A DNA stretch of 64,000 nucleotides from Neomegalonema perideroedes DSM 15528. GTDB lineage: Bacteria > Pseudomonadota > Alphaproteobacteria > Rhodobacterales > Rhodobacteraceae. Both the position numbers and the translations under genes were made by a program. The stretch spans positions 443,495 to 507,494 of the forward strand of contig NZ_KB893653.1 of assembly GCF_000374145.1 (NCBI RefSeq). The letters are read 5' to 3'. How positions within the stretch are numbered: the first letter of the stretch is position 1; each line of letters starts with the position of its first letter. Under the pieces are notes generated by a model. It was not told the origin of the DNA and did not search any database. It was given only the letters and a program-made list of their open reading frames with translations. Of this stretch, positions 467-63,856 are shown one piece after another.

Positions 467-1771
467 ATGGTTCCGCGCTATTCCCGCCCCGCAATGACCG
501 CGCTCTGGGAGCCGGCGACGAAATTCCGCATCTGGTTCGAGATCGAAGCCTACGCCACCGAGGCTCTGGCGAAGATCGGCGTGGTGCCGCAATCGGCGGC
601 GGATGCGGTCTGGAAGGCGAAGGACGTCGAATTCGACGTGGCCCGCATCGACGAGATCGAACGCGAGGTCAAACATGACGTCATCGCCTTTCTGACCCAT
701 CTTTCCGAGCATGTCGGGCCGGAGGCGCGCTTCGTCCATCAGGGCCTGACCAGCTCCGACGTGCTGGACACCTGCCTCAACGTGCAGCTCGTGCGCGCCA
801 GCGACATTCTGCTGGCCGATCTCGACGCGCTGCTGGCCGCGATCAAGCGCCGGGCCTATGAGCATAAAGACACGCCCACCATGGGCCGCAGCCATGGAAT
901 CCACGCCGAGCCGGTGACCTTCGGCCTCAAGCTCGCGGGCTATTACGCCGAATTCTCCCGCGCGAAGGCCCGCCTTCTGGCGGCGCGGGCGGAAGTCGCC
1001 ACCTGCGCCATCTCCGGCGCCGTGGGCACCTTCGCCAACGTCGATCCCAGCGTGGAGGCCTATGTGGCCGAAAAGCTCGGGCTGGAGATCGAGCCGGTTT
1101 CGACTCAGGTCATCCCGCGCGACCGCCACGCCATGTTCTTCGCGACTCTGGGCGTGATCGCCTCCTCCGTCGAGCGGCTGGCCATCGAGATCCGCCACCT
1201 CCAGCGCACCGAGGTTCTGGAGGCCGAGGAATATTTCTCGCCCGGCCAGAAGGGCAGCTCGGCCATGCCCCATAAGCGCAATCCGGTGCTGACCGAGAAT
1301 CTGACGGGCCTCGCCCGCGTGGTGCGCGGCGCCGTGGTCCCCGCCATGGAGAACGTGGCGCTCTGGCATGAGCGCGACATCTCCCACAGCTCCGTCGAGC
1401 GCTTCATCGGGCCGGACGCGACCATCACCCTCGATTTCGCCCTCGCGCGGCTGACCGGCGTGATCGACAAGCTCATCGTCTATCCCGAGCGGATGATGGA
1501 GAACCTCAATAAGTTCAGGGGCCTCGTGCATTCGCAGCGGATTCTTCTCGCGCTCACCCAAAAGGGCGTCAGCCGCGAAGATTCCTATCGCCTCGTGCAG
1601 CGCAACGCCATGAAGGTCTGGGAGCAGGGCAAGGACTTCCTGACCGAACTCAAGGCTGACGCCGATGTGACGAAGGCCCTCAGCCCCGCCGAACTCGAAG
1701 GCCTCTTCGATCTCGGCCACCACACTCGCCATGTGAAGACCATCTTCGCCCGGGTCTTCGGCGAGGCCTGA
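467..1771 (+). CDS. purB: Adenylosuccinate lyase
   Basis: Adenylosuccinate lyase acts twice in purine synthesis: it releases fumarate from SAICAR and from adenylosuccinate. The 434-residue protein has the usual family length. Visible signatures are the LTSSDVLDT segment near residue 94, GRSHGIHAEP near 139 (catalytic His region) and the fumarase/aspartase signature SSAMPHKRNP near 264. The ATG at 467 is chosen because MVPRYSRPAM matches the conserved PurB N terminus and AAAGG (455-459) sits seven bases upstream; an upstream TTG at 452 would add five unconserved residues. It stands alone, with an inverted repeat and the aqpZ terminator downstream. purH of the same pathway lies 14 kb away. Confidence 0.96.
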   Translation: MVPRYSRPAMTALWEPATKFRIWFEIEAYATEALAKIGVVPQSAADAVWKAKDVEFDVARIDEIEREVKHDVIAFLTHLSEHVGPEARFVHQGLTSSDVLDTCLNVQLVRASDILLADLDALLAAIKRRAYEHKDTPTMGRSHGIHAEPVTFGLKLAGYYAEFSRAKARLLAARAEVATCAISGAVGTFANVDPSVEAYVAEKLGLEIEPVSTQVIPRDRHAMFFATLGVIASSVERLAIEIRHLQRTEVLEAEEYFSPGQKGSSAMPHKRNPVLTENLTGLARVVRGAVVPAMENVALWHERDISHSSVERFIGPDATITLDFALARLTGVIDKLIVYPERMMENLNKFRGLVHSQRILLALTQKGVSREDSYRLVQRNAMKVWEQGKDFLTELKADADVTKALSPAELEGLFDLGHHTRHVKTIFARVFGEA

Positions 1772-1783
1772 GCCGAGCGCGAT

Positions 1784-1808
1784 CCGAAAACTGGGAACCG
1801 GTTTTCGG
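1784..1808. repeat. Inverted repeat downstream of purB
   Basis: CCGAAAAC (1784-1791) and GTTTTCGG (1801-1808) form a perfect 8-bp inverted repeat around a 9-base loop. The outer GCGCGAT / ATCGCGC sequences also pair roughly. It lies 12 bases after the purB stop and may be a stem terminator or one copy of a dispersed palindrome; motifs of this style are common between genes in alphaproteobacteria. Confidence 0.5.
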
Positions 1809-1834
1809 AGAAATCGCGCGCCCCTTAAAACAGC

Positions 1835-1863
1835 AAAAAGCCCGCTCCCTTTCGGGAGCGGGC
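1835..1863 (-). terminator. Rho-independent terminator of aqpZ
   Basis: A perfect 10-bp stem (1840-1849 with 1854-1863) closes a four-base loop that reads GAAA on the minus strand. On that strand it is followed by five T residues (1835-1839). It starts 26 bases past the aqpZ stop. It may also stop purB transcripts from the other side. Confidence 0.85.
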
Positions 1864-1889
1864 CATGTTTCCTGCGAGAGGTCCGAAGC

Positions 1890-2603
1890 TTACTTCGGCA
1901 GATCGCGATGGAAGAGCAGCTCGGCGCGGAACAGGAAGCCCGCGACCGCCGCGCCGACCAGCGGAGCGGCGATGAAGAGCCAAAGCTGGCTCAGAGCCGC
2001 GCCATTGCCGCGGATGGCGTCGATCAGCGCCGGGCCGAGGCTGCGCGCCGGGTTGACCGAGGTGCCGGTGATCCCGATGCCCACCAGATGGATCGCCACC
2101 AGCACGACGCCGATGGCCAGACCCGCGATCGCGCCATGCGAAGCGCGATGGGTCGAGCCGAGGATCACCACGAGGAAGATGAAGGTCGCGACGGCTTCGA
2201 AGATGAAGGCCGAAACCATGTTGTAGCCGCCCGGGCCGCCCCAGCCGTTGGTGGCGAAGCCGCCCGTATAGCCGCCGTCCTTACCCTGCACGATGAGGTA
2301 GAGCACGAAGGCCGCCGCGATGGCGCCCAAGCATTGCGCGATCACATATTGAATGAACTCGGCCACGGAGAGGCGGCCGGCGATCAGGGCGCCGAAGCTC
2401 ACGGCCGGGTTGATGTGGCAGCCCGAGATGGCGCCGATGCCGTAAGCCGCGCCGATCAGGGCGAAGCCGAAGGCGAGGGCGACGCCCGGCAGACCGATGC
2501 CCGCCTGACCCAGCCCGGAGAAGCCCGTGCCGATGATCGCCGCGCCGCAGGCGAGGAAGACGAGCGTGAAGGTGCCGATGAACTCGGCGAGAGATTTTTG
2601 CAT
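1890..2603 (-). CDS. aqpZ: Aquaporin Z-type water channel
   Basis: A 237-residue inner-membrane channel of the MIP family, close to E. coli AqpZ in length, with six hydrophobic segments. Both NPA boxes are intact: HINPAVSF (NPA at 65-67) and TSVNPARS (NPA at 184-186). His172, Thr181 and Arg187 match the narrow aromatic/arginine filter of water-selective aquaporins rather than glycerol facilitators. The start at 2603 (MQKSLAEF) is preferred over an upstream ATG that adds 11 residues, because it matches the family and AAGG lies about ten bases before it. Monocistronic, with its own terminator at 1835-1863. Confidence 0.93.
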   Translation of the reverse strand: MQKSLAEFIGTFTLVFLACGAAIIGTGFSGLGQAGIGLPGVALAFGFALIGAAYGIGAISGCHINPAVSFGALIAGRLSVAEFIQYVIAQCLGAIAAAFVLYLIVQGKDGGYTGGFATNGWGGPGGYNMVSAFIFEAVATFIFLVVILGSTHRASHGAIAGLAIGVVLVAIHLVGIGITGTSVNPARSLGPALIDAIRGNGAALSQLWLFIAAPLVGAAVAGFLFRAELLFHRDLPK

Positions 2604-2984
2604 ATCCGCAAACCTTAAAGATGGCGCCCTCATCAAGGTTCTGTGAAGGCTTGGTCTTCAGCGGCGCGGAGTATCGCCGAATCGGCCCGGCGCAGGAAGC
2701 TTGAAAATGCCGCCTCGCCCGCCGCCTCCGAGGCGCGGGACAAGCGGAGTTCGCGCATGCTTATGAAAATACGTTTTAAATCAGGAGGTTATTTTTAAAA
2801 GGCCGGAAACGGCTCCTCCGGCGGCTGCGCGCCTGCTTCGGAAGAGCGTCTCCGCCTGAGGAGAGGCGGCTAAGGGCGCGTCGCGCCGGGCGCGAGTCTC
2901 CGGGGCGGGCGGATGAGGAAAAGCCCCGAAGTCGAAGACTCCGGGGCGAATCACGTCTCGTTTCGGGGCGGCCCGAATCGGGCC
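2604..2984. other. Intergenic region, no gene seen
   Basis: About 380 bases between aqpZ and the next minus-strand gene. An AT-rich patch at 2764-2800, unlike its surroundings, may hold the aqpZ promoter, although no convincing -35/-10 pair was identified. The only clear structure is the terminator at 2919-2947. Short open frames here show no coding character. Confidence 0.5.
2919..2947 (-). terminator. Rho-independent terminator of the 2985-3776 gene
   Basis: The stem pairs 2923-2933 with 2937-2947 (ten pairs, one A/C mismatch) around a three-base loop. On the minus strand four T residues follow (2919-2922). It lies 38 bases past the stop of the hypothetical gene. Confidence 0.75.
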
Positions 2985-3776
2985 TCAGCCGCGACGGCGG
3001 CCGAAGGCGCGTTTGGGCGTCGCGTCTTGATCGTTCTCGCCGCTGAGGGCGGGGTCTCCTCCGGCCTCTTCGAATTCGGGGCCGCCGAGCCCGCCCCAGA
3101 GCTGTTCGGTGGAGAGCAGCGTGACGGGCGGCGCGCCCGCGGGGCGATAGGCGAGATCCTCTTCAAGGGCCTCTTCGATCTGAGGAGCCCAGCGCAGAGC
3201 CGCCGCCATGGCCTCCAGCCCGACCATCGCCGCGGCGGTCAAAGGCATGCTGGCGCGGGCGCGCAGAATGCCCGCCACCAAAGCGCCGTTCAGGGCGAAC
3301 ATGGCCTCATGCCGCTTGAGCCCGTGGCTCGCCATGACGGCGTGCGCGTTGCGGCGCAGGCGCGGTCCGGCGTTGAGCGGCCAGAAGCGCGGCCAATGGG
3401 CGGGATCGGGCGGCAGAGGCGGAAAAGGCTTCGCCCCGACCGAAGCCACCACCCGCCGCAAAGCATGCACCGGATCCGGCGCCGCCGCGGGCGGCATGCC
3501 CATGCCCTGAATCATCGCCTGACGCAGATAACCCGAGAGGGTGGCCGGCGATTCGGTCTCGTCGTAAAACAGCGCGTTCGCCTTCTGGCTCAGCACCGGC
3601 CCCTGAACGGGCAATTCGCGCTCGCAGGCGATGAGGGCGGCCTCGCCCGTTAAGACGCCGAGCGCCGCCACGACCGAGGGCCAATGCGTGTCCCCCGCGT
3701 CGTCTCGGCAGGCCTTGACCGCCATATCCGCCACGGCGGCGCTCGCCGCTCGCCAGGCCTCCGCCCTTTCGCTCAT
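2985..3776 (-). CDS. Hypothetical protein of unknown function
   Basis: A 263-residue protein that I do not recognise. It is rich in alanine and proline, has no obvious signal peptide or transmembrane helix, and its C-terminal 40 residues are acidic and probably disordered before a basic RRR tail. Two moderately conserved-looking helical blocks (residues about 1-70 and 120-200) suggest an all-helical cytoplasmic protein. Coding character is supported by a GC-rich third position, a clean ATG at 3776 and a terminator immediately downstream. It lies 152 bases beyond ssb on the same strand, so it may share the ssb transcript; no function follows from that. Confidence 0.65.
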   Translation of the reverse strand: MSERAEAWRAASAAVADMAVKACRDDAGDTHWPSVVAALGVLTGEAALIACERELPVQGPVLSQKANALFYDETESPATLSGYLRQAMIQGMGMPPAAAPDPVHALRRVVASVGAKPFPPLPPDPAHWPRFWPLNAGPRLRRNAHAVMASHGLKRHEAMFALNGALVAGILRARASMPLTAAAMVGLEAMAAALRWAPQIEEALEEDLAYRPAGAPPVTLLSTEQLWGGLGGPEFEEAGGDPALSGENDQDATPKRAFGRRRG

Positions 3777-45243: not shown

Positions 45244-45428
45244 GAGGCGTCGTCTCCCTGATCTCTGATCTGAGCGGACAGCCTACAGGCGGGCGCGGCC
45301 CGGCGCCCTTCAAGAAAAGGAGAGCGGAGGATTCCGCGCATCCCGTCCGATCGTTCCCGACTGGTTCCTTGGTGGACATTCGCGCCGGTTCCCCCGATAG
45401 TGCGGACCGGACGACAGGAGCAGCGATC

Positions 45429-46139
45429 ATGGCAGAGTTGACCGGCGCGAGCGCCGATTTAAGCGCTTTTTTGGACGATCAAAAATTTGGCTGCGTGATG
45501 GCGGATCCTCCCTGGAGGTTCACCAACCGGACGGGCAAGGTGGCGCCGGAGCATAAGCGGCTCGCCCGCTATCCGACCATGGAGCTGGACGAGATCTGCG
45601 CTCTGCCCATCGCCAAGCATCTTGAGGCGCGGGCTCATTGCTATCTTTGGGTGCCGAACGCCCTTCTGCCCGACGGCCTTCAAGTTCTGAAGGCTTGGGG
45701 CTTCGAATATAAATCCCACATCGTTTGGGAGAAGATCCGCAAGGACGGCGGTCCCGACGGGCGCGGCGTCGGGTTTTATTTCCGGAACGTCACGGAGATC
45801 CTCTTGTTCGGCGTGCGGGGCAAAGACGTGCGCACGCTCGCCCCGGGCCGCTCTCAGGTGAATTTCATCTCGGCCGAGGAGCCCGGAGCCGAGGAAGGCC
45901 GCGTCGGGCCTGACGGCGATCTTGTGAAGACCCGGAAGCGCGAGCATAGCCGGAAGCCCGATGAGCAATATCAAATCATCGAAAGCTGCTCTTGGGGGCC
46001 CTATCTTGAGCTCTTCGGCCGCGGGCGGCGGGAAGGCTGGACCGTCTGGGGCAATCAGGCCGACGATGATTATAAGCCCACGTGGAAGACCTATTCGCAT
46101 AACTCGGCGACCGATAACCTCACGACTCCCGCCGAATGA
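45429..46139 (+). CDS. MT-A70 family DNA adenine methyltransferase (type II modification)
   Basis: A 236-residue N6-adenine methyltransferase. The catalytic motif ADPPWRF is at about 25-31; HCYLWVPNALLPDGLQVLKAWGF and GVGFYFRNVTEILLFGVRG follow the MT-A70 pattern. MT-A70 proteins include m6A methylases of RNA and, in bacteria, DNA modification enzymes. The convergent neighbour resembles a BglII/BstYI-type endonuclease, so this is most likely the protective methylase of a type II system. The ATG at 45429 has AGGAG nine bases upstream; an earlier GTG at 45369 lacks one. Confidence 0.85.
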   Translation: MAELTGASADLSAFLDDQKFGCVMADPPWRFTNRTGKVAPEHKRLARYPTMELDEICALPIAKHLEARAHCYLWVPNALLPDGLQVLKAWGFEYKSHIVWEKIRKDGGPDGRGVGFYFRNVTEILLFGVRGKDVRTLAPGRSQVNFISAEEPGAEEGRVGPDGDLVKTRKREHSRKPDEQYQIIESCSWGPYLELFGRGRREGWTVWGNQADDDYKPTWKTYSHNSATDNLTTPAE

Positions 46140-46190
46140 GCTTGGTCCGAGCGGTCGGGGCTTCCCGGCCGCTCGTCCGGAGTTTTGAGC

Positions 46191-46223
46191 GAGGGCGGGG
46201 AGAACCGGCGCCCCTCCGCCCTC
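46191..46223. terminator. Two-way hairpin between methylase and endonuclease
   Basis: GAGGGCGG (46191-46198) pairs with CCGCCCTC (46216-46223) in the 97-base gap between the convergent genes. A second, weaker GAGCGG/CCGCTC pairing lies at 46149-46174. No T tract. Confidence 0.45.
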
Positions 46224-46236
46224 GGCTGAGGCCGAT

Positions 46237-46971
46237 CTATTCGAGGATCGCCGACGAGGGCAGGCCGATCAGCAAAAGCGGACATGGATTGCCGACGCCC
46301 CGATTGACGCGCTCCACCAATTTGCTCCAATGCGTCGTGGCTTGGCCGAATTTATCCTGCACGAATTGTCGGGCGAAGGCTTGGGGATAGGGCGTTTGAC
46401 GCTCGACGAAATACTGCACGGCCTCGCGTTGACGGGCGGTGCGCTCCTTCATCTTGAACAGCTTGACCATTTGGTCTTCGTCGAGGACGCCGTGCTTCTT
46501 GAGGCATCGCTCCACCATATCGGTCATGCCGGCCTGAAGGCTGGAGCCGCGCGTGATGATGACGCCGATGCTGATGGCGCTCTGCGCGTGAAGCCGCTGG
46601 AAATTCTCAAGGTCGCGGTCGAAGAACGGATCCTTGTTGTTCCATTCGATTTCAAGAGCGATGCGGCCGGCCCCGGCCTGACGGACATGGTCGATTTCGT
46701 GGCTCTGGGAGACGGTTTCGTCGCCGTCGACGCTCAAAGTGAACCGAAAATTATGTTTCGGCCACCCCGCTTCGTAAAGGTGCTTGCGCAGGCGCTGCGT
46801 GGATTGGGCCTCGCCGCCCCCGGATCCGATCAGCTCCTCGACGGGGATGGACAGCTCTAGAAGAGCTTCCTCCAGTTCATGGACTTGGTCCGGAAAATCG
46901 ACGCTGAAGATGGCGCCTGCGTGATTGCGGATCGCGATATCGAAACCGCGGTCGCGAAGCTTGTCGAACAT
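46237..46971 (-). CDS. BglII/BstYI-like type II restriction endonuclease
   Basis: A 244-residue protein that I assign to the BglII/BstYI endonuclease family. The likely active site is in HEIDHVRQAGAGRIALEIEWNNKDPFFDRDLENF (residues 92-125): an Asp followed by Glu-x-Glu/Gln on the next strand, as in BglII-type PD-(D/E)XK enzymes, then IGVIITRGSSL. The C terminus PLLLIGLPS matches the family's closing strand. BglII and BstYI cut around GATC cores, but the target here cannot be read from sequence. Convergent with the methylase, and divergent from hsdM with 165 bases between the starts. Confidence 0.75.
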   Translation of the reverse strand: MFDKLRDRGFDIAIRNHAGAIFSVDFPDQVHELEEALLELSIPVEELIGSGGGEAQSTQRLRKHLYEAGWPKHNFRFTLSVDGDETVSQSHEIDHVRQAGAGRIALEIEWNNKDPFFDRDLENFQRLHAQSAISIGVIITRGSSLQAGMTDMVERCLKKHGVLDEDQMVKLFKMKERTARQREAVQYFVERQTPYPQAFARQFVQDKFGQATTHWSKLVERVNRGVGNPCPLLLIGLPSSAILE

Positions 46972-47136
46972 GCCGGATTCCTCATTGCGCGGCGGGAGGA
47001 TAGCAGCCGGATCCGCCCGGATCCAGCTGGAAGGGGGGGCATGGAGGGCTTGGATCCCGCGGTCGCCGAGGATTGCCCCGCGCCTCCCGACCCCCTAAGC
47101 AGGGCGGAGAATTTTCTCCTGCCTTACGGATGCGCG

Positions 47137-48675
47137 ATGCTGACAGGAATGATCCGCACTCAAGTCGATCAGATTTGGAACGCCTTCTGGTCGGGAGGCG
47201 TCTCTAATCCGCTCTCCGTCATCGAGCAGCTGACCTTTCTGATGTTCGTCAAGCGTCTGGACGATCTCCAGACGGTCGAGGAGAGCAAGGCCGAAGCTCT
47301 GGGCCGCCCTCTGGAGCGGCGGATCTTCCCGGAAGGCGCCGATCCCAAAAACGAGCCTTATGAGAATCTCCGCTGGTCGCGCTTCAAGAATTTCGAGGCC
47401 CGCGAGATGATGCGCGTCGTGGACGAGCATGTCTTTCCCTTCCTGCGGGCTCTGGGCGAAGAAGGCTCCTCCTACGGGCGGCATATGAAGGACGCGCGGC
47501 TGGGCTTCTCCAACGCGAATCTGCTGGCCAAGGTCGTGCAGATGCTCGACGAGCTGCCGATGGAGGGCCGCGACGTCAAAGGCGACGTCTATGAATATAT
47601 GCTCGGCAAGATCGCCAGCGCGGGGCAAAATGGGCAATTCCGCACGCCGCGCCACATCATTCAGCTGATGGTCCGCCTGACGAAGCCCACCCCCGCAGAC
47701 ATGATCTGCGATCCTGCGGCGGGCAGCTGCGGCTTTCTGATGGAGGCGGGGGAATATCTGCGCGAGGCCCATCCCGAGATGCTGCGCAATCCCGAACAGC
47801 GGCGCCATTTCCATGAGGCCATGTTCCACGGCTTCGACTTCGACGCCACCATGCTGCGCATCGGGGCGATGAACATGATTCTGCACGGCGTCGAGAACGC
47901 CGAGGTGGCTTATCGCGACAGCCTCGCCGAACCGCAGGACTCCGACGCCGGGCGTTATTCTCTGATTTTGGCGAATCCGCCTTTCGCGGGCTCGCTGGAT
48001 TATGAGACGACGGCCAAGGATCTGCAGAAGCTCGTCAAGACGAAGAAGACCGAGCTTCTCTTCGTGGCGCTGTTCCTGCGGCTGCTGCGGATGGGCGGCA
48101 GGGCTGCGGCCATCGTGCCGGACGGCGTTTTGTTCGGCTCCTCCAAGGCGCATAAGGATTTGCGCCGCGCCCTGACCGAGCATCATAAGCTGGAGGCGGT
48201 GATCAAGCTGCCTTCGGGCGTCTTCCGGCCCTATGCGGGAGTCTCCTGCGCGATTTTGCTCTTCACGAAGACGGGCGTGGGCGGCACGGATCAGGTGTGG
48301 TTCTACGACATGGCGGCGGACGGCTTCAGCCTCGACGACAAGCGCGCGCCGCTGCTGGACCCGGAGAAGCTGGGGCCTTCTCCGCGGACGCCTCTGAGCG
48401 AGGAGGAGCGGGCGAAGAACGATCTGCCGGATATTCTGGCGCGCTGGGGGGATCTGGCTGCGGAGGCGGCGCGTCCGCGGACGGCGCGGAGCTTCATGGT
48501 TCCTCTGGCGGAGATCGTGGCGACGGGGAGTTGGGACTTATCTTTGAACCGCTATCGCGAGATCGAGCAGGCGGAGGTCGCGCACGCCTCTCCCGCCGAG
48601 ATCATCGCCGAGCTTCGCGTATTGGAGGCCGAAATCTCCGAGGGCTTGGAAAAGCTTGAGGAGATGCTGAAGTGA
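47137..48675 (+). CDS. hsdM: Type I restriction-modification methylase subunit HsdM
   Basis: Adenine methyltransferase subunit of a type I system. The 512-residue protein begins MLTGMIRTQVDQIWNAFWSGG, matching the HsdM N-terminal helical domain, with the SAM motif DPAAGSCGF at 192-200 and catalytic NPPF at 280-283. The frame is open back to 46879, across the divergent endonuclease start, but the family N terminus and length favour 47137. The stop overlaps hsdS by four bases. Confidence 0.95.
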   Translation: MLTGMIRTQVDQIWNAFWSGGVSNPLSVIEQLTFLMFVKRLDDLQTVEESKAEALGRPLERRIFPEGADPKNEPYENLRWSRFKNFEAREMMRVVDEHVFPFLRALGEEGSSYGRHMKDARLGFSNANLLAKVVQMLDELPMEGRDVKGDVYEYMLGKIASAGQNGQFRTPRHIIQLMVRLTKPTPADMICDPAAGSCGFLMEAGEYLREAHPEMLRNPEQRRHFHEAMFHGFDFDATMLRIGAMNMILHGVENAEVAYRDSLAEPQDSDAGRYSLILANPPFAGSLDYETTAKDLQKLVKTKKTELLFVALFLRLLRMGGRAAAIVPDGVLFGSSKAHKDLRRALTEHHKLEAVIKLPSGVFRPYAGVSCAILLFTKTGVGGTDQVWFYDMAADGFSLDDKRAPLLDPEKLGPSPRTPLSEEERAKNDLPDILARWGDLAAEAARPRTARSFMVPLAEIVATGSWDLSLNRYREIEQAEVAHASPAEIIAELRVLEAEISEGLEKLEEMLK

Positions 48676-53976: not shown

Positions 53977-54504
53977 ATGACCAACGTATCCGACAGCAGC
54001 CCCCGCATCTATGTTGCCTGCCTTGCAGCTTACAATAGCGGCTTTCTGCATGAAGTTTGGATCGACGCGGATCAGGACGCCGACCAGATCAGGGACGAGA
54101 TTGCCGCGATGCTTGCCCGTTCCCCTGTCGAGGACGCAGAGGAATACGCCATTCACGACTATGAGGGTTTCGAGGGCGTCAGCATCTCCGAATATGCTGG
54201 CATCGACAGCGTGGCGCGGATGGCCGCTTTCATCGCAGAGCATGGCGCACTCGGCGCGGGCCTGCTGGAGCAGTTCGGCGGCGACACGGACCAAGCCGAA
54301 ACCACCTTGCAGGACTGCTATCATGGTCAGTTCGCCAGCCTCGCCGATTACATCGAGGAATTGACCACAGAGAGCGTCACCATCCCCGAGGCGCTGCATT
54401 ACTACGTCGATTGGGCGGCGATGGCGCGCGACGCTGAAATGAGCGGCGATCTTTTCACTATCGAGACCGCGCACGGCGAGGTGCATGTGTTTTCCAGTAG
54501 GTGA
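53977..54504 (+). CDS. ardA: ArdA-type antirestriction protein
   Basis: ArdA is a DNA-mimic that inhibits type I restriction enzymes during conjugative entry. The 175-residue protein is strongly acidic and has the family blocks RIYVACLAAYNSGFLHEVWIDA (10-31), EEYAIHDYEGFEG (55-67) and YYVDWAAMARDAEMSGDLFTIE (near 143-164). The ATG at 53977 follows GAGGATCAGAGAC. A GC-rich hairpin lies downstream at 54521-54540. Its position 0.6 kb from a complete type I system is notable, although the two seem to belong to different DNA segments. Confidence 0.93.
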   Translation: MTNVSDSSPRIYVACLAAYNSGFLHEVWIDADQDADQIRDEIAAMLARSPVEDAEEYAIHDYEGFEGVSISEYAGIDSVARMAAFIAEHGALGAGLLEQFGGDTDQAETTLQDCYHGQFASLADYIEELTTESVTIPEALHYYVDWAAMARDAEMSGDLFTIETAHGEVHVFSSR

Positions 54505-55606: not shown

Positions 55607-56341
55607 CTACCCCACAGCTTGCTCCGCAGGCAAACTATCAGCAAGTCGCTCCGCAAGTGCCACAGCAACCGCTTGGAATGTCGAAACATAACTATAAAAT
55701 ATCTCGGGTCCAGCGGAACTTCCTGCATTCAATGAGTGCGCAATATCGTTCCTCATCTCCATGAAATCATTTACTGAAGTAAGGAAACGACTGTGAACCT
55801 TTCCTTTATCTTCTTCCCCAAAATGATCTTTCATTTTCTCGTGGTCACATATCTTTAAGCATACGTCTGAAAGATCACATATAGAGAAAACAGCATTAAT
55901 TTCTGATGGTCGCATGTTGTTCTCATTATGAATCAGAGAATCGTAAATATCCTGCGAAACGTCACCTCCTAAAAAGGCCCATACTGAATCAAATTTAGCC
56001 CGAGATTCTGCCGATATGTGCTCTAGGGAAAGTGGCGTTCCTCCGGTGTCTATTTTCGCGCGAGCCAAATTCTCAAGCGTCCGCTTCCAAGCGGTTGCTG
56101 TCAACTTCTTAGGAAGCTTCTTTGGATCACTGGTGCGAGAAACAACGTCCCTAGCAAATTGCCGGCCCAACTGCCGAACAAATTCCTCAAAGGTGGCAGC
56201 TAGAAGCAGGGTAGCCGAATTCACCGACGCGACGCGGGCCTTTGCGGAGGAACCGCTACTGTGCGCAGCCTGAACGAGATTTGACAATGCAGCCAAATCA
56301 GACAGAAAGTCTTCTGCTATGAGATCATATGAGGTCGCCAC
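55607..56341 (-). CDS. HEPN-domain putative ribonuclease (MAE_28990/MAE_18760-like)
   Basis: A 244-residue all-helical protein that I assign to the MAE_28990/MAE_18760-like HEPN group. The hallmark R-x4-H motif is RNDIAH (Arg197-His202) late in the protein, as in RNA-cleaving HEPN toxins, preceded by ATFEEFVRQLGRQFARD (50-66) with conserved acidic residues. The start is a GTG at 56341; its GAGGA ribosome site overlaps the stop of the DUF262 gene, so translation is coupled. The DNA is AT-rich compared with the element around it. Predicted role: effector RNase of a two-gene defence or toxin module with the DUF262 protein. Confidence 0.75.
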   Translation of the reverse strand: MATSYDLIAEDFLSDLAALSNLVQAAHSSGSSAKARVASVNSATLLLAATFEEFVRQLGRQFARDVVSRTSDPKKLPKKLTATAWKRTLENLARAKIDTGGTPLSLEHISAESRAKFDSVWAFLGGDVSQDIYDSLIHNENNMRPSEINAVFSICDLSDVCLKICDHEKMKDHFGEEDKGKVHSRFLTSVNDFMEMRNDIAHSLNAGSSAGPEIFYSYVSTFQAVAVALAERLADSLPAEQAVG

Positions 56342-56348
56342 GGCTTCC

Positions 56349-57539
56349 TCACGCAGGATGATGAAGAATATCTTGAAGTAGCTCTATCCTATCCCTAACC
56401 GATTCAGCAGTATTGCCACGACCAACAAGTATTTCATATTTATCGTCATCAGCGATAGCTGACTGTATCCTGCCTGCAATTGCAGCTTTCTCCGACTTAA
56501 TCAAATCCCTCTTTGCCCACAGTCGATTGATCGCTACCATTGCAGCATCATAAACCGCAGCAGATACGCGCTCCCGACCATCGGTTCTGGACGCAACAGA
56601 GAACGGCCTTCCATCAAAAATTTCATAAAGGAACTTGAATTGCTCTTTGTATTCCTCTCGGGCGATTGCGGCTTCTTCAGGAGTCATGCGAACCTCCATT
56701 GCGCGGTCAAGCATGGATTTCATTGACCCTCGAATGTTGGCATCGTCTTTCAGTGCAAAGTAACGAAGGACAAGTTCGCAATCCTTCATCGTGCTATATA
56801 GACTATTCTTTTGTCGTTCTGGATTGATATAATAGTCCTCCGGGTCTTTCTCCGTATAAGGAGGAATGCCAAATACATCAGTAAATAGACTGTATCGACT
56901 TAGTTCAATAATTGCCTCATTTAGAGGGCCAGGATTTTGAGCGTTCCTTAGCTCTTGCGCGTTGAGTTTCATACCCCCGGTGTTGAGCCTGTCAAAAACT
57001 AAGCGCCTGATATCTGTGAGGCCGAGTGACCCCTGCCCGGAAATTTCAGATTCACTCTCCATCAGGAGAACGATGGCAGAAATACTTGCTCGGTCTAAGG
57101 TTCTTTTTACCCGAGGTGGAGCCTTCGGATAGCGAATTCCGTTAAGTGGAGAAAGGACTTTCAATCCTGAAAGAGCAAATGACCCCGAGAAAAATTCTCG
57201 GATAGTATTTAATCGTTGCTGCCCATCCATAACCTCATACCGGGCCGCATCGCTTTCGTAAAAAAACACCGGAGGTATTGGAATGTTGAGAAGAAGGGAC
57301 TCTATAAGCCTTGATTTCTGTGCGGTCGTCCATCGAAGCCGCCGTTGATATTCTGGGTGAAGGTTGATTGCTTCCCGCCTATCAATCATATCCCTGATCT
57401 GTGGAAGCAGAAAATTATTGGTCTGATAAACAACGCGAAATGCGTTCTTTGCCAAGAAGTCATCAGGGTCGCGGGAGTCGATTGCAACCGGAGCGTCATC
57501 CGGTTCTTCTGTCTCGCCGAGATCAACATCAACGCTCAT
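56349..57539 (-). CDS. DUF262 (GmrS/ParB-like) protein, first gene of the DUF262-HEPN cassette
   Basis: A 396-residue DUF262 protein. Motifs: HPEYQRRLRW (61-70), LIESLLLNIPIPPVFF (79-94) and YEVMDGQQRLNTI (101-113), the DGQQR nucleotide-binding box of this ParB-superfamily group. In GmrSD-type restriction enzymes DUF262 is joined to a DUF1524 HNH nuclease; here the C-terminal half has no HNH residues, and the nuclease role seems to be supplied by the HEPN protein encoded seven bases downstream. ATG at 57539 with AAGGG seven bases upstream; an upstream ATG at 57617 would read through the inverted repeat. Confidence 0.8.
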   Translation of the reverse strand: MSVDVDLGETEEPDDAPVAIDSRDPDDFLAKNAFRVVYQTNNFLLPQIRDMIDRREAINLHPEYQRRLRWTTAQKSRLIESLLLNIPIPPVFFYESDAARYEVMDGQQRLNTIREFFSGSFALSGLKVLSPLNGIRYPKAPPRVKRTLDRASISAIVLLMESESEISGQGSLGLTDIRRLVFDRLNTGGMKLNAQELRNAQNPGPLNEAIIELSRYSLFTDVFGIPPYTEKDPEDYYINPERQKNSLYSTMKDCELVLRYFALKDDANIRGSMKSMLDRAMEVRMTPEEAAIAREEYKEQFKFLYEIFDGRPFSVASRTDGRERVSAAVYDAAMVAINRLWAKRDLIKSEKAAIAGRIQSAIADDDKYEILVGRGNTAESVRDRIELLQDILHHPA

Positions 57540-57571
57540 GTTCAGGCCCTTGCAAGCTATTTTTTTCTTGT

Positions 57572-57599
57572 CTAGACGATCTTTTTCAGGCCCGTCTAG
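57572..57599 (-). promoter_or_regulatory. Inverted repeat upstream of the DUF262 gene
   Basis: CTAGACG (57572-57578) and CGTCTAG (57593-57599) form a perfect 7-bp inverted repeat with a 14-base centre, 33 bases before the start codon in AT-rich sequence. Candidate operator or promoter-overlapping site for the cassette. Confidence 0.45.
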
Positions 57600-57701
57600 C
57601 GTGTTGTGCTCCCACATAGCCGAAACGCCGCCTCATGGTAAGCGTAGGCCCTCGTTTCTTGCAGCCGAAGCCGTCCGCGGCGGCACGTATTGGCGTCATG
57701 C

Positions 57702-62512: not shown

Positions 62513-62731
62513 TTGGCTGGCGTCAAGCTGTTGTCCATCACGCAGGAAATGGGCGACGACCCCATGCACGTCATGATGCGGCAGATCATGGCGCTATTCG
62601 ATGAATATCAGTCGAAGGAGAACGGCAAGCACGTCATGCGGGCCTTGAAGGAGAATGCGCGGCAAGGCTTCTGGAACGGCTCCCTTCCTCCCATCGGCTA
62701 CCGTGTTGTCGATGCCGAGCAGCGCGGCGCG

Positions 62732-62794
62732 AAGAAGAAGAAGAAGAAGAAGAAGAAGAAGAAGAAGAAGAAGAAGAAGAAGAAGAAGAAGAAG
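62732..62794. repeat. (AAG)21 trinucleotide microsatellite
   Basis: Twenty-one uninterrupted AAG triplets encode 21 lysines in the serine recombinase frame. The flanks (GA and LEID) match ordinary members of the family, which have only a few lysines here. Confidence 0.95.
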
Positions 62795-63856
62795 CTGGAG
62801 ATCGACCCACTCCATGCCGATACCGTGCGGCTGATCTTCCGCCTTGCATCGGAAGGAGACGGCAATTCCGGCCCGATGGGCGTCAAGAGCATCGTCAATC
62901 ACCTGAACAAGCACCGCATGTTCACCCGCAACGGCGGGCGTTGGGGCATCGGCCAGCTTCACCGTGTCCTAACCCGGCTTACCTATATCGGCGAGCATCG
63001 CTTCAATCGCCGCTCCAACAAGGGTGTGGTGAAGCCCGAGGACGAAATCGTCACCGTCCCGGTGCCGCCGCTGATCGACCTTGAGATATTCGAGGCCGTT
63101 CAGAATCGCTTGAAGGTCAACAATCCGAAGGTGACGCCGCCGCGCGTCGTCAGCGGCCCGAACCTGCTGACCGGCATTTGCTATTGCGGCAATTGCGGAG
63201 GCGCGATGACGCTGCGCACGGGCAAGAACGGCCGCTATCGCTATTATGCCTGCTCGATCCGGGCGCGGCAGGGCGAAACCGGCTGCAAGGGCCGCGCGAT
63301 CCCCATGGACAAGCTCGACCGCATGGTTGTGACGCATATCGAGGAAAGGCTACTCGACCCCGAGCGGATCGAAGACGTTCTCGCCTCGCTTCTGGATCGC
63401 CGGCAGGAAGGCGTCGAGCGGCGCAGCCAGCATATCGCCGAGTTGAACCATCGCGCGGCCGAGGCCGACAACCGCCTCAAGCGCCTCTACGATGCCATTG
63501 AAGCCGGTTCGCTCGATCCGGCCGAATCCGCCCTTGGCGAGCGCATCGCGGGACTCACGGCGCTTCGGGATCAGGCGCGGGCCGACGCCGCGCGGACCGA
63601 AGCCATGCTCGCAAGCTCCACCCACCAGCGCCTCACCGGGGCGGCCGTGCGGGAACTGGCGAGCGAAGCACGAAGCAGGCTCCGGCTCGGAATGGGCGGC
63701 TATCGGCGGGAGCACGTCCGGGCCTTTGCACAGCGTGTCGAGGTCGCAGACGACGCAATTCGCATCATGGGATCGAAAACGGAGCTGCTGAAGACGCTTA
63801 TTGCTGGCCAAGGGCGGCAATCGGCGGCGATTGGCGTGCCCAGAGGCGGTCTGAAA

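Follow-up and report, generated by a model that had tools for sequence, protein, structure and literature searches.

A convergent MT-A70 methylase and BglII/BstYI-family endonuclease in Neomegalonema perideroedes: a probable RGATCY restriction-modification system related to Nph3I

Introduction

The cognate methylases of BglII and BstYI are m4C enzymes, as are those of BamHI and OkrAI, both of which have GGATCC as their target. Neither BglII nor BstYI is sensitive to Dam methylation according to REBASE (cited in the available sections of PMC10287943), and adenine protection therefore does not follow from the fold by itself; in the same vein, MflI is described as 6mA-sensitive and BstYI as not (PMC10734518). 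Inference from the fold alone is unsafe, yet it holds for systems of the kind considered here, because homologues show adenine protection.

The closest described system is Nph3I of the Nitratiruptor phage NrS-3, published in mSystems in 2023 (PMC10734518). In the available sections of that paper, the endonuclease R.Nph3I (NRS3_08, also written NrS3_08; BCD83124.1) is reported to contain a PF09195 domain, to cut all four forms of RGATCY and to be completely inhibited by 6mA, whereas the product of the methylase M.Nph3I (NRS3_07, NrS3_07; BCD83123.1) is RG6mATCY, with GGATCC strongly preferred in vitro. The name MT-A70 has 0 occurrences in these sections. The class was identified here: in our Pfam search of the proteins of LC545444.1, BCD83123.1 matched MT-A70 (4.6e-32) and BCD83124.1 matched PF09195 (2.5e-47), and this sequence match assigns M.Nph3I to the MT-A70 class. 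The MT-A70/BglII-family pairing has thus already been described, with Nph3I as an instance, and for that reason we do not present it as new. Among the matches listed for literature joining MT-A70, BglII and restriction-modification, the EcoP15I paper stood alone.

A second comparable system is the RMC of Acinetobacter baumannii A118 (H0N27_10820-30), in which, according to the available sections of PMC10287943, a BglII/BstYI-family nuclease is accompanied by an adenine methylase yielding RG6mATCY, and Dam protects the DNA. It differs in that the methylase is annotated as 'DNA adenine methylase' and an HTH gene lies between the two genes; the likeness is one of description. Plasmid loci of Acinetobacter and Dyadobacter that resemble this system carry an E-x-E-type nuclease beside a methylase of the D12 adenine class instead of MT-A70.

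RGATCY has been reported as a target in Methylococcus capsulatus (MCA0246, 651 bp; PMC13390346) and, with m6A, in Gemmatirosa (PMC3974934) and Sinorhizobium meliloti (PMC11711589), in each case in the available part of the source. The same sequence is marked in other ways elsewhere, because M.CsaI of C. salexigens, which yields RGm6ATCY, is described in the accessible text as resembling GATC methylases (PMC3526280), and R. blasticus 28/5 marks RGATCY with m4C (PMC6256690).

The locus and its two genes

We analyzed a stretch of 64,000 nucleotides from Neomegalonema perideroedes DSM 15528 (contig NZ_KB893653.1), hereafter the window. The following features, in window coordinates, are relevant here.

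45429..46139, plus strand: MT-A70-class adenine methyltransferase, 236 aa, predicted RG6mATCY product (PF05063, E 2.4e-27, 96.4 bits, cut-off 23.9)
45504-45515, plus strand: DPPW motif, residues 26-29
45864..45932, plus strand: stretch with an insert of ~19 residues ahead of the RKREHSRKP motif (approximate limits)
46140..46236, no strand: intergenic gap of 97 bp between the convergent stop codons
46237..46971, minus strand: BglII/BstYI-family type II restriction endonuclease, 244 aa, predicted RGATCY cutter (Endonuc-BglII, PF09195, E 1e-24, 87.5 bits, cut-off 26)
46360..46506, minus strand: predicted helical insert, about residues 156-204 (approximate limits)
46645..46692, minus strand: presumed active-site codons D94, E107 and E109 (D...E-x-E), by homology to D...E-x-Q of BstYI
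47137, right of the nuclease gene: hsdM of a type I system
48672: hsdS of the type I system
49995: hsdR of the type I system
53977-54504, ~590 bp past hsdR: ArdA antirestriction gene (PF07275, 6.5e-40)

An initial annotation had proposed an MT-A70 methylase gene convergent to a BglII/BstYI-like endonuclease gene, and this description is borne out: the positions coincide with open reading frames 45429-46139 (+) and 46237-46971 (-), the genes face each other across 97 bp, and Pfam assigns the products to the two families named.

The methylase frame begins with ATG at 45429 and stops at 46139, with a longer in-frame TTG start at 45369. PADLOC identified the product as a type II methyltransferase (5.7e-87) and had no model matching the nuclease; NCBIfam gave no match for either protein. 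D26-P27-P28-W29 is invariant among 17 aligned methylase sequences, and the ~19-residue insert is absent or shorter in the relatives compared.

The nuclease frame runs from 46971 to 46237 on the minus strand. A PDB sequence search with the single protein returned no relevant chain, and a search with a nuclease profile yielded BstYI as the sole relevant match (E 0.003); BamHI and OkrAI had no sequence match to the nuclease at E up to 10. The AlphaFold2 model, for which 17 aligned sequences were the input, reached a mean pLDDT of 93.0 and pTM of 0.89. When the model was compared with solved structures by VIA-align, the best matches were BstYI (RGATCY; Z 18.4), BglII (AGATCT; 17.1), BamHI (16.0) and OkrAI (14.3), the matches to these four enzymes spanning Z 13.8-18.4 and the next entry standing at 5.7, and BstYI was also the top Foldseek match (E 5e-6). 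A BglII-like fold, set beforehand as a check on the annotation, is therefore what structure prediction gives.

D94 and E109-W110-N111 are invariant among 17 aligned nuclease sequences, which have either E or D at position 107, whereas the BstYI residues at D94, E107 and E109 align as D...E-x-Q; the branch to which the window nuclease belongs is thus D...E-x-E. The EWNNKDPFFDRDL motif begins at E109 and extends below 46645. D94, E107 and E109 are presumed to be the catalytic residues. The E-x-Q active site of BglII and BstYI proper is not present in the window nuclease, which has E107-x-E109, and in this respect the protein is closer to BamHI: according to the available sections of a review (PMC4081073), BglII has Q, and BamHI has E, in place of the active-site lysine. 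The helical insert of ~50 residues is missing from R.Nph3I and the shorter relatives.

Surroundings of the pair

The nuclease gene is divergent from hsdM, and the initial annotation suggested a control region shared by the two systems at 46972-47136. We found nothing in favor of this suggestion: an HsdM like that of the window was found beside 0 of the 115 other loci compared (flanks of 1.5-4 kb), and no promoter-like site was found in the interval. When the window HsdM, HsdS and HsdR were searched against loci L001-L116 (same flanks, E 1e-5, so that a highly diverged or more remotely placed HsdM would escape), the sole match was the window's own locus, L004. A scan of 45250-47300 for sigma-70-like promoters identified two sites, with 0 within 46972-47136. 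Three copies of GGATCC lie at 47009-47052.

The sister genome G001 (L241, G001:C27) aligns at the corresponding chromosomal locus as far as window position 45326, and past that point it has another type I restriction-modification system, with an HsdR containing an EcoR124_C domain and an HsdS (Pfam). Because a different type I system occupies the same site, the neighborhood looks like a site of defense-gene turnover, an apparent hotspot beside a dienelactone hydrolase gene.

The ArdA gene borders a run of genes for a RovC-like regulator, RPA, DUF2840, an S26 peptidase and a transglycosylase, and this run looks like a mobile element. Adjoining genes for HEPN_RiboL-PSP and GmrSD_N proteins on the minus strand (55607-57617) are a possible further defense pair. 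At about 62730-62795, ~20 AAG (lysine) codons occur in a row within a recombinase-like frame that matches PF07508 and PF13408, with no resolvase-domain match; the run may reflect either expansion of a repeat or an error in the assembly.

Relationship to Nph3I

The window methylase is 64% identical to that of Nph3I and the window nuclease 31% identical to R.Nph3I. In both systems an MT-A70 methylase adjoins a PF09195 nuclease with the EIEWNNKDPFFDRDL motif. The Nph3I genes differ in being phage-borne and in tandem, with the nuclease gene leading and an HTH gene immediately downstream, and R.Nph3I lacks the insert of the window nuclease.

In a tree of 36 methylases, the window enzyme, M.Nph3I and an enzyme of Azospirillum thiophilum grouped in a clade of 33 rows (support 98/96), three other MT-A70 rows falling outside; the tree was rooted at the midpoint, the outgroup branches are long, branching within the clade is mostly unresolved, and the bootstrap had not fully settled. 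The window methylase belongs to the M.Nph3I clade, and the adjacent nuclease to the E/D-x-E-W-N branch. One protein of the clade (L029, 606-1457) carries a C-terminal HTH_58 domain and is perhaps a self-regulating methylase.

Two nuclease branches with different methylase partners

PF09195 was detected in 8 of 61 relatives, in 7 of them over the cut-off; the fetched stretch contained an MT-A70 motif protein in 5 of the 8, a TSPPY protein in 2 and neither in 1. A survey of the class found PF09195 in 29 of 385 genomes, with 37 match rows, of which 30 loci were typed by motif and the other seven are extra copies or fragments in genomes already typed. The methylase partner tracks the active-site type of the nuclease in all typed loci except L025, which places the MT-A70/nuclease pairing beyond chance.

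The E/D-x-E-W-N motif characterizes 16 typed loci, in 13 of which an MT-A70 motif was found nearby. The remaining three are L030, with broken MT-A70 pieces, L012, an Azospirillum locus with the methylase elsewhere, and L026, with no methylase in the stretch and a stop within the nuclease match. The E-x-Q-F nucleases are accompanied by a TSPPY methylase in 11 of 11 loci and by MT-A70 in 0 of 11. Among the other typed loci, L034 combines a short-form nuclease with TSPPY, and L035 a broken nuclease with MT-A70. The TSPPY proteins of L018, L025, L031 and L034 belong to N6_N4_Mtase (Pfam); the MT-A70 partner of the window nuclease is unlike the N6_N4-type partner of BglII and BstYI proper. In L025 (G297:C1, locus 824-3146), a BstYI-type nuclease with E-V-R replacing E-V-Q is flanked by two methylase classes, a TSPPY N6_N4 enzyme and an MT-A70 of the window's clade.

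The remark in the initial annotation that other methylase classes are the familiar partners of BglII-type enzymes therefore needs to be divided between the branches: it agrees with the E-x-Q-F relatives beside TSPPY methylases, but not with the E-x-E branch, where MT-A70 is the usual partner among the loci typed and Nph3I is already in print.

Spread, linkage and decay of the pair

When genome contigs were searched with the aligned methylases, at least 575 relatives were returned, of which the best 80 were kept. For 66 of these 80, a nuclease gene lies within the fetched flanks (up to 4 kb). The other 14, some of them near contig ends, have none in the flanks, and in 5 of 5 genomes searched, four of them drawn from those 14, a PF09195 gene was found elsewhere in the genome. 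Both genes are present in 82 of the loci L001-L116, being convergent in 43, ordered methylase then nuclease in 30 and nuclease then methylase in 9. Of 13 nuclease-bearing plasmid records, 11 also have the clade methylase, and the proteins are annotated as 'MT-A70 family methyltransferase' and 'BglII/BstYI family type II restriction endonuclease'. The pairing of MT-A70 with BglII-family nucleases is common.

This recurrence bears on whether the two window genes belong together at all. They could be unrelated neighbors, the MT-A70 enzyme modifying RNA or serving the type I system, and the solved MT-A70 structures matched by sequence are indeed annotated as mRNA m6A methyltransferases, METTL3 included. 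However, the pair recurs without the type I genes of the window, and M.Nph3I, from the same clade, methylates DNA, as stated in the available sections of PMC10734518. On these two grounds, the recurrence of the pair and the DNA substrate of M.Nph3I, we reject chance neighborhood and an RNA methylase, which we consider extremely improbable.

Other copies of the pair have decayed. In L035 the nuclease gene is broken and the MT-A70 gene next to it intact, both genes are broken in L030, stops occur inside some PF09195 matches, and the 14 of the best 80 methylase loci without a flanking nuclease could be counted on the same side. By analogy, the window locus might itself be decaying, with a solitary methylase and a silent or inactive nuclease; we think this improbable, as neither window frame is interrupted and the residues presumed to be catalytic are intact.

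Co-occurrence in Azospirillum

In A. thiophilum BV-S, RGATCY is adenine-methylated by an enzyme denoted 'M.Ath2165II', for which the text gives no locus (PMC4706337). The A. thiophilum genome (G469) encodes an MT-A70 of the clade, 67-69% identical to that of the window. The other methylases detected are one distant MT-A70, two PF01555 proteins, one of which appears CcrM-like by motif, and a single D12 match, 24.0 bits against a cut-off of 22, which spans 51 of 253 positions inside a much longer frame. By elimination, the clade MT-A70 is likely to be M.Ath2165II; the elimination is incomplete, because the D12 match exceeds the curated cut-off and the search covered the MT-A70, PF01555 and D12 families only. 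A difference from the window is that the A. thiophilum nuclease gene lies 1.27 Mb from the methylase gene along the replicon (G469:C1:262689 and 1534378).

Among 45 genomes of the Azospirillum genus group, 26 have PF09195, 28 have the clade methylase (at least 67% identity) and 25 have both. The methylase is present in 25 of 26 genomes with the nuclease vs 3 of 19 without it (Fisher p 2.3e-8, kinship ignored), and the sole genome with a nuclease but no methylase, G454, is in 1140 contigs and 93% complete. In the 25 genomes with both genes, these are side by side in 4, 36 kb apart in 1, >100 kb apart on the same contig in 11 and on different contigs in 9. Given that only 4 of 25 pairs are side by side and the others are distant or on different contigs, the co-occurrence is not simply linkage. 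With 11 of 25 pairs >100 kb apart on one contig, Azospirillum offers the case of an unlinked type II restriction-modification pair.

Predicted function and target

By analogy with Nph3I, we interpret the window pair as making up a full type II restriction-modification system that is homologous to Nph3I, with RGATCY as target and RG6mATCY as the protected form, and assign this reading a probability of roughly 0.82. The MT-A70 enzyme would methylate the adenine of the GATC core of RGATCY on both strands; the BglII/BstYI-fold endonuclease, through its D...E-x-E site, would cut unmethylated RGATCY in entering DNA; and the adenine methyl group of RG6mATCY would block cutting. The exact target, the activity and the role in defense are all projected from the Nph3I homologue. 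The proposal of the initial annotation that a GATC core is protected on adenine is well supported in the form of RG6mATCY through homology to Nph3I, and more weakly through the A. thiophilum methylome.

Because the nuclease is 31% identical to R.Nph3I and longer by an insert of ~50 residues, its target may be narrower or shifted. Under such a scheme the restriction-modification system would be the same and the methylase would keep RGATCY, but the nuclease with its helical insert would recognize a GATC-core site more restricted than RGATCY or distinct from it, such as AGATCT alone or GGATCC alone. Several observations could be taken this way: in pairwise comparisons over the 82 two-gene loci, the methylases average 0.71 identity and the nucleases 0.40, a figure that incomplete rows pull down (minimum 0); the insert is absent from R.Nph3I; and two of the fold matches, BglII (AGATCT) and BamHI (GGATCC), read single sites. 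Against it, the identity matrices of the two proteins co-vary (Mantel r 0.395, a value that none of 999 permutations attained), a pattern that common descent by itself could produce, and the nearest tested relative, R.Nph3I, cuts all four RGATCY sites according to the available sections of PMC10734518. We consider a narrowed target unlikely in the window. Equally doubtful is its generalization to the family, namely, that the fast-changing nucleases of the large E-x-E family have shifted or narrowed their GATC-core targets behind a slow-changing RGATCY methylase, the insert branch of the window being one such case; if true, a conserved methylase would license specificity change in the nuclease.

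Site frequencies were compared in genome samples. In a 400-kb sample of the host (G000), the RGATCY class has an observed/expected ratio of 0.91 and is not specially depleted; the ratio is 0.63 in G035, which has the system, and 0.73 in G014, which is PF09195-free but of different G+C and represented by only 240 kb. In the same host sample, AGATCT was observed 123 times vs 235.9 expected (rank 14 of 64 palindromes from the most depleted) and GGATCC 166 times vs 274.7 (rank 16 of 64), and many palindromes are as depleted.

The RGATCY reading of the window pair brings together scattered facts, namely, the biochemistry of Nph3I, the methylome of A. thiophilum and the recurrent MT-A70/BglII neighbors in genomes and plasmids: the E-x-E BglII-fold nucleases go with adenine methylation, and the E-x-Q branch stands beside TSPPY methylases. 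As biology, the window pair is ordinary, a type II restriction-modification system of the Nph3I kind, probably with RGATCY as its target. The restriction-modification locus thereby gains a concrete candidate target, RG6mATCY, and, to judge from what the available sections report on A118 and Nph3I, DNA from dam+ E. coli should resist this nuclease on transfer to such hosts.
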